This document shows, piece after piece, positions 7,058 through 8,378 of a DNA stretch of 64,000 bases. The notes under the pieces are model-generated. The model was not told the origin of the DNA and did not search any database. It was given only the letters and a program-made list of their open reading frames with translations. Made by a program: the position numbers and the translations under genes. Source of the stretch: a virus; IMG/VR virus record IMGVR_UViG_3300008117_000010, positions 1 through 64,000 of that record; one strand, 5' to 3'. How positions within the stretch are numbered: the stretch's first letter is position 1; each line of letters opens with the position of its first letter.

Positions 7058-7139
7058 GTTATTATCTTTCTATTAAGATAACGATTACCATTTAGAGAAC
7101 AAAACAAAATAGAAAAAATGTAAATAGATTTTATCCCTC

Positions 7140-7231
7140 TGCACTCAGTTGTACCTGTAAGTTTGATACCTCATGGGTATTACATGGTTAGTTCCTACAA
7201 CTGCTCACCCTTGGGAAGTGAGAATGGTGCA
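7140..7231. ncRNA. Structured element copy 1 (three-way junction)
   Basis: Outer stem TGCAC (7140-7144) with GTGCA (7227-7231). Second stem CAGTTGTA (7146-7153) with TACAACTG (7196-7203), extended inside by TGTAA/TTACA and ATACC/GGTAT. Side hairpin CTCAC (7204-7208) with GTGAG (7218-7222), then AATG before the outer stem closes. Same plan as the copies at 7707-7911 and 8245-8373. The strand is unknown because the pairings work on both; minus is favoured since surrounding genes are minus and it lies in the 5' leader of the 39-aa gene. Confidence 0.6.
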
Positions 7232-7351
7232 TTAATCCGGTCCTTAAGGCATATGGACCAAAGCCTGCATTGACTACTGAGCTATGCTAACGCCAGCAAC
7301 TTACTGGATATTTACCTGGTTAAAGGAAAGGTAACAATACTATATTAATTC

Positions 7352-7441
7352 CTTTGGATTTAGTTGTAATAATTACCACATTGTCCTTTTTGATTAGACC
7401 GTTGTATTCGTTTCGGGATTATTACAACTACTTATCCAAAG
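7352..7441. ncRNA. Structured element copy 4 (degenerate)
   Basis: Second stem TAGTTGTAATAAT (7361-7373) pairs perfectly with ATTATTACAACTA (7418-7430). The outer stem is a different sequence, CTTTGGAT (7352-7359) with ATCCAAAG (7434-7441), still fully paired. The side hairpin is missing. It overlaps the last codons of the 81-aa gene, so it could also act as its 3' stem. Nearby 7239-7334 holds further short stems (GGTCC/GGACC, CCAG/CTGG, TTACCT/AGGTAA) but no gene. Confidence 0.5.
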
Positions 7442-7677
7442 TTCAGTTCATCAAATCTGTCATCGTCTTCATCAGACATGAAAGACTCATTAAATTCATT
7501 AGCCATATCACCATTAAGTTGAAATTCAACTTTAGGTTTAGCTTGTAATTGTTGCAATACTTTTTCGCGATTACTAATAATCATTTTAAGAGTATTGCGG
7601 AGATGATTAATATCCATATCATCAACGGATATTAACTTACCATTACGCATTTTCCAATAAACAATATTATCTTCCAT
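7432..7677 (-). CDS. Hypothetical protein, 81 aa
   Basis: Begins MEDNIVYWKMRNGKLISVDDMD and ends in an acidic tail (SDEDDDRFDELNFG). No motif recognised. It is an isolated gene inside the structured non-coding region: element copy 2 lies just upstream and element copy 4 overlaps its stop codon. Confidence 0.72.
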   Translation of the reverse strand: MEDNIVYWKMRNGKLISVDDMDINHLRNTLKMIISNREKVLQQLQAKPKVEFQLNGDMANEFNESFMSDEDDDRFDELNFG

Positions 7678-7706
7678 AAGAGTATCATTTTAATAATATA
7701 AATTAT

Positions 7707-7911
7707 TTCTCTGCACACAGTTGTAATAGTATATTAGTGACGCTCTTGTCCTTAATACCTTGCTCTCAAAACACAACTATGTTGATTAACATACAACCTC
7801 AAGCCCAATATGGCATAGTCAGGTTTACATAGTACTTAATGTGGAGGCTTACTAGTAAGATAAGTCTAATCTTACTATTACAACTGCTCACCCGAAGGTT
7901 AGTGCAAAGAA
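7707..7911. ncRNA. Structured element copy 2 (three-way junction)
   Basis: Outer stem TTCTcTGCAC (7707-7716) with GTGCAaAGAA (7902-7911), one mismatch. Second stem CAGTTGTAATAGT (7718-7730) pairs perfectly with ACTATTACAACTG (7874-7886). Short CTCACC... side hairpin at 7887-7901. The loop of the second stem is long, about 143 nt, with its own potential stems. It sits 30 nt upstream of the 81-aa gene start on the minus strand. Confidence 0.65.
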
Positions 7912-8244
7912 ATACGCTAATATCAAGTGGATAATCACTATCAATCAACTAATCTGTGGTTGCTGAACAGACTTAAACAGCAGTAGATTTTACAGTTCTA
8001 CTCAACTGACCACACTAGGCATCATAAATTTAATAATGAATTATCTCATTATTGACCAAGATTTATTTAGCCTAAACACCTTTCGGTGTTAAATGTGTGG
8101 TGATTTCTTACATTTTTACCCATAAGACGGTCAAATCTTATGAGTGTAAGTCATCAATAAAGATACATAAAATTGGATGTGTTAAAACTCAAAACATCGT
8201 GTTTTAAGTTACCTTGGATTACCTAGGTTATTGTTAGAATAATC
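7912..8244. ncRNA. Block of long hairpins between elements 2 and 3
   Basis: No gene is visible. Stems seen in order: TGTGGT with ACCACA enclosing TGCTG/CAGCA and GTAGA/TCTAC; TAGGC/GCCTA enclosing AATAATGA/TCATTATT; AACACC/GGTGTT with a TTTC loop; a nested TGAT, CTTACA and CATAAGA arm pairing with TCTTATG, TGTAAG and ATCA (8101-8155); TTAAAAC/GTTTTAA. Such regular nesting is typical of a folded RNA rather than spacer DNA. Confidence 0.5.
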
Positions 8245-8373
8245 CCTCTGCACTCAGTTGTAATAGTACCATAATATTCAATGCTTATTAGGCAATTCTA
8301 GCTTTATGGATTTAGTCTTGTTTATACTCATAAACTATTACAACTGCTCACGATTGTGAGAATAGTGCAGAGG
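8245..8373. ncRNA. Structured element copy 3 (best copy)
   Basis: Outer stem CCTCTGCAC (8245-8253) pairs perfectly with GTGCAGAGG (8365-8373). Second stem CAGTTGTAATAGT (8255-8267) pairs perfectly with ACTATTACAACTG (8334-8346). Side hairpin CTCAC-GATT-GTGAG (8347-8360). Unpaired T8254 and AATA 8361-8364 lie at the junction. The outer-stem bases differ from copy 2 while pairing is kept. Confidence 0.65.
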
Positions 8374-8378
8374 AATAA

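Follow-up and report, generated by a model that had tools for sequence, protein, structure and literature searches.

What are the four repeated, structured units that lie within 1.2 kb of a phage genome (positions 7134–8374), and what might they do? The original prediction, made on the first 64,000 nucleotides of IMG/VR record IMGVR_UViG_3300008117_000010 (the whole stretch analyzed here, referred to as the window), described them as an array of three-way-junction RNAs in a non-coding locus, knew no described class with this plan, and suggested ROOL/GOLLD-type RNAs, processing sites, or a regulatory leader array. Its account of the pairing holds: the second stem (CAGTTGTA..TACAACTG) has 8 bp in copy 1 and 13–14 perfect bp in the other three copies, and the outer stems of copies 2, 3, and 4 are as described. 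The strand, however, has to be reversed. At nearly all loci the genes adjoining the element lie opposite to the strand first read, arguing that the RNA is encoded on the minus strand, and it is only on this strand that its catalytic parts are seen to match those of a described class, the twister ribozyme.

Copy 1 is a canonical, type A1 member of a wider RNA family (covariance model R1; 74.3 bits, E = 2e-19 in the 64-kb window). The A1 layout is P1-UAA-P2-P4 (loop UUCCCAAGG)-stem-P2′-GAGGG-P1′ or, spelled out on the minus strand, P1-UAA-UGCAC-CA..-P4-UUCCCAAGG-P4′-CAGUUGU..(40–200 nt)..ACAACUG-A-GUGCA-GAGGG-P1′, and in the window its parts fall as follows:

7123–7242, minus strand: copy 1, canonical A1, with a twister-like ribozyme core (covariance model R1)
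7232–7234, minus strand: UAA, the 5′ side of internal loop L1 (49/51 elements in the 3′-half selection)
Between U7234 and A7233, minus strand: predicted cleavage, by analogy to twister
7227–7231, minus strand: P2 5′ strand, UGCAC (P2 covariation)
7218–7222, minus strand: P4 5′ strand, CUCAC (P4 covariation)
7209–7217, minus strand: L4 loop, UUCCCAAGG (T1 covariation)
7213–7215, minus strand: CCC in L4, one half of pseudoknot T1 (T1 covariation)
7204–7208, minus strand: P4 3′ strand, GUGAG (P4 covariation)
7196–7203, minus strand: side stem 5′ strand, at the twister P5 position (covariation)
7146–7153, minus strand: side stem 3′ strand, at the twister P5 position (covariation)
7140–7144, minus strand: P2 3′ strand, GUGCA (P2 covariation)
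7135–7139, minus strand: GAGGG, the 3′ side of L1 (T1 covariation)
7135–7137, minus strand: GGG in GAGGG, the other half of T1 (T1 covariation)

In a subtype, A3 (L059, L099, L108, L072, and others), P4 carries an extra paired domain beside the CCCAAGG loop, made up of GUGGAUAUAAAGACUUCUUA..UAAGAUGUAAAACCAC plus ACUGAU..AUCAGU.

That these are structured RNAs under selection, as originally proposed, is borne out by covariation. Among 40 distinct sequences, both sides had changed in 19 of 29 pairs, and the covariation score reached 0.333 compared with 0.134 in shuffles, none of 500 of which scored as high; partners slid along the sequence covaried far less than the true register. P1, P4, and the long side stem all covary: every one of the five P4 pairs had changed on both sides with 100% of cells paired, 8 of 11 side-stem pairs had done so, and P1 pairing exceeded that of shuffled flanks at the right register only (z up to 10.8). 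P2 was invariant in the 40-sequence set, with UGCGU/ACGCA or UGUGU/ACACA replacing the usual UGCAC/GUGCA in three loci. The support for copy 1, which has a weak P1 in the window, is comparative, since its own free energy was not unusually stable relative to shuffles (z = −0.34).

Conservation in A1 is highest at unpaired letters—UAA, CCCAAG, and GAGGG. Across elements the P4 loop takes the form UUCC(C/A)AAGG, and GAGGG or GATGG is found in 96 of 99. The two halves of T1 change together: 89 of these 99 elements read CCC/GAGGG, seven carry the joint change from CCC/GGG to CCA/UGG (CCA/GATGG), and three have other states. Mapped onto the terminase tree, the CCA state needs three or more changes, a pattern of repeated compensated changes that element exchange between phages could mimic. 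A follow-up scan for CCA loops recovered 14 new elements with a recognizable 3′ half, and the predicted U was present in 13 of them (12 GATGG, 1 GCTGG) and missing from one. Likewise, selection on the 3′ half alone returned UAA in 49 of 51 elements and a complementary T1 in 49 of 51. When CCU/AGG and CCG/CGG types of T1 were sought, the only element-like match, L306, had a damaged 3′ half.

The family extends well beyond the window. An IMG/VR scan with CTGCACNCAGTTGTA yielded at least 120 stretches, many with the full element, along with unrelated chance matches (classed as 'other'), and another pattern, directed at the 5′ half, yielded at least 119, both scans giving a lower bound on family size. 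Most IMG/VR contigs with the RNA have crAss-like terminases; within 32 records searched, a related terminase was present in 26 and A1 in 30, at one or two copies each. The canonical form in relatives is thus usually single and at most double per genome rather than an array. We regard the window phage itself as crAss-like because its capsid protein matches Crass_capsid (PF23898) and, judged from these sequence comparisons, the family is a conserved RNA common to many crAss-like phages of Bacteroidota. In G013, G006, and G027, the terminase match reads through in-frame stops, and one viral contig holds a tmRNA match (L122:885–1274, minus strand; 59.9 bits). Among named phages, blastn with the locus and with the consensus element gave no match, and covariance-model searches of seven records of named phages, crAss-like or related, found none, an empty answer that is weak; a neighboring gene used as bait in viral contigs returned no relatives. 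Host genomes contributed four pattern matches (L202–L205), with L202–L204 lacking the rest of the element.

The remainder of the window locus is more varied:

7243–7345, minus strand: module E (..UAUCCAGUAAGUUGCUGGCG..), conserved, just 5′ of copy 1 (12 distinct copies across loci)
7352–7441, minus strand: copy 4, type B, with outer stem and long stem, without side hairpin or twister loop (sequence, covariance model, fold)
7432–7677, minus strand: conserved 81-aa ORF (tblastn relatives)
7703–7913, minus strand: copy 2, type A2, with the 3′ half kept and the 5′ half fully paired, without a CCCAAG loop
8236–8378, minus strand: copy 3, type A2 (covariance model; fold z = −5.2)

The four units do not share a single plan: the side hairpin is missing from copy 4, and the UAA/GAGGG internal loop and CCCAAG loop of copy 1 are both missing from copies 2 and 3. 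Against the family model, copy 3 scored 46.6 bits (E = 3.3e-11) and copy 4 reached E = 0.061, both in the 64-kb window; copies 2, 3, and 4 each folded better than 200 of 200 shuffles (z = −3.6, −5.2, and −4.0, respectively). Copies 2 and 3 retain the 3′ half, but their GGG strand pairs with CCU/CUU on the 5′ side; with GGG engaged there and the loop gone, neither should cleave, and each is probably a relative that has decayed or has a purely structural role. Nor is the locus wholly non-coding: the 81-aa ORF has tblastn relatives in ~19 other loci (32–60% identity over most of its length). Copy 2 lies ~26 nt upstream of the ORF's ATG at 7677, and in six loci relatives of this ORF have an A1 element 13–132 nt upstream. 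Module E, which contains a CCAG-UAAGUUG-CUGG hairpin, mostly lies just upstream of an A1 element. Modules C (UACUCUCAUCCAAGCAGG..CAAGGGUUGCAACCUUGUGAGAGUA) and D (ACCACAAGGUUU..CUUGUGGU), both conserved and paired, also lie close to A1, at L051:800–1010 and about 40 other places; an Rfam search at L051:1–1600 found no match for them, and they could be further ribozymes. Between 7913 and 8235, the window holds more hairpin-rich sequence without assigned ORF or Rfam match.

What, then, might the canonical element do? A start codon follows within 100 nt downstream of A1 in 48 of 94 elements, compared with 10/95 and 17/84 in controls. We consider it likely that copy 1 forms a twister-type active site within a small RNA that cleaves itself. 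In such a mechanism, P1, P2, P4, and the long side stem would position L1 (UAA/GAGGG) and the P4 loop (UUCCCAAGG), and pairing of the loop CCC with the L1 GGG would line up the U-A step. The cut, which we infer to fall between minus-strand positions 7234 and 7233, would leave a 2′,3′-cyclic phosphate upstream and a 5′-OH downstream, and the mRNA downstream would now begin with the folded element. As the element is often followed closely by a start codon, its likely use would be to trim early phage mRNA 5′ ends, cap them with a stable fold, and free them from upstream RNA; early transcripts of these phages probably cleave themselves immediately before genes. 'Processing sites' therefore comes nearest among the options first offered, in that the core resembles a self-cleaving ribozyme, while the ROOL/GOLLD suggestion found no match. 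If true, diverse crAss-like phages would harbor a conserved self-cleaving RNA, at about one per genome, that was missed by Rfam, and whether such ribozymes set phage mRNA 5′ ends becomes testable.

An alternative is a fold of twister origin that has lost cleavage, or cleaves only on a signal, and that serves as a stable 5′-UTR module protecting the mRNA or binding a protein. Copies 2 and 3, in which the outer and side stems persist but the active site does not, fit this picture, as do the placement of copy 2 before a conserved gene and of A1 before that gene's relatives. A passive scaffold, however, would need none of UAA, CCCAAG, and GAGGG, the very letters that are most conserved, and we deem such a module unlikely. 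Some pairs of loci (L058/L197, L099/L118, L038/L059) share identical stem interiors but differ in flanks or subtype, which would fit exchange between phages at the conserved arms. Since identical interiors carry different flanks, parts appear to have been exchanged, which would be in keeping with a DNA-level element—for instance a site of recombination or insertion whose single strands fold, as in attC. Yet the orientation to genes is fixed, there is about one element per genome, start codons are close by, and a known ribozyme core is matched, all of which make a DNA element very improbable.

ROOL and GOLLD are large structured RNAs of phage genomes, and A1, likewise a structured RNA of phage genomes, shares its loci with modules C, D, and E, as if it were one domain of a large ornate RNA of that kind. 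No ROOL or GOLLD match emerged, however, with Rfam returning none in the window or in 13 related loci; the flanks vary between phages, genes lie between the copies, and the A1 core spans ~100 nt as opposed to the several hundred nucleotides of ROOL/GOLLD. We find this explanation scarcely tenable, and retain self-cleavage as the preferred reading.

Known ribozymes occur alongside A1. In G027, a diverged ordinary twister, ~105 nt upstream of A1 on the same strand, matched Rfam twister-P1 at 48.5 bits (cut-off, 67.2; E = 3.4e-11 for one genome) and shares A1's P2 (UGCA) and CCA/UGG T1. Diverged but recognizable ordinary twisters were seen in A1-bearing loci at L249:1501–1569, L115:858, and L139:7393. 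Hatchets above the Rfam gathering score lie on the A1-locus strand at L051:46–208 (G014), G001:30306–30438, and G005:33058–33196, ~1 kb upstream of A1 in G001 and G014; the terminases of G001 and G005 are 62–65% identical to that of the window phage. Hatchet (RF02678) and A1 thus share loci and strand in three genomes, as well as the letters GUGCAGA near the 3′ end, but differ in their stems and conserved loops, and RF02678 did not match the A1 element itself, marking hatchet as a separate neighbor. As of 2015, all known hatchets came from metagenomic DNA, and none from a completely sequenced organism (PMC4604424). Should our reading be correct, twister and hatchet ribozymes would acquire a definite home in phages.

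Twister's T1 is formed by L4 with L1, and cleavage takes place at the U-A step within L1 (PMC5408937). The Rfam twister-P1 (RF03160) consensus, ccuu-UAA-cgCc-GC-P3-P4-GUCCCAAGCC-P4′-gGcg-GAGGG-aagg, aligns with A1 part by part: both have a variable P1, a UAA/GAGGG internal loop, a short P2 with a central C-G pair, a P4 with a UCCCAAG loop, and the loop-to-L1 pseudoknot T1, and the A1 loops are of the same kinds in the same order. A1 differs in having no P3 and a long stem at the rare P5 position instead, in its five-pair P2, and in an L4 that is one nucleotide longer (UUCCCAAGG versus UCCCAAGC). Twister's T2, which joins GC of L2 to two bulged nucleotides of L4, is absent as GC:GC and either missing or down to one possible pair: L2 reads CC(A) and L4 reads GG, C16 covaries with G80 as the fifth P2 pair, and a C17-G34/35 pair is possible, both partners being invariant. 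Rfam twister models matched neither copy 1 (E up to 10) nor the A1 elements of 13 genomes. Because T2 is unsupported and Rfam gives no match, formal twister membership of A1 is unproven; that it works like a twister is well supported. We also considered the missing non-circular twister permutation, sought without success in PMC10085705, and rejected it for A1, whose block order is still that of type P1. A1 is probably a new, self-cleaving twister variant. It is conceivable, if doubtful, that A1 is a ribozyme class of its own or a twister that has been deeply rearranged, with the L1-L4 active site on another scaffold in which the five-pair P2 and the stem opposite P4 replace the T2-P3 stack, and forms a core regulatory part of crAss-like phages. 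If T2 has really been lost, much of the twister fold would prove replaceable with the active site kept.
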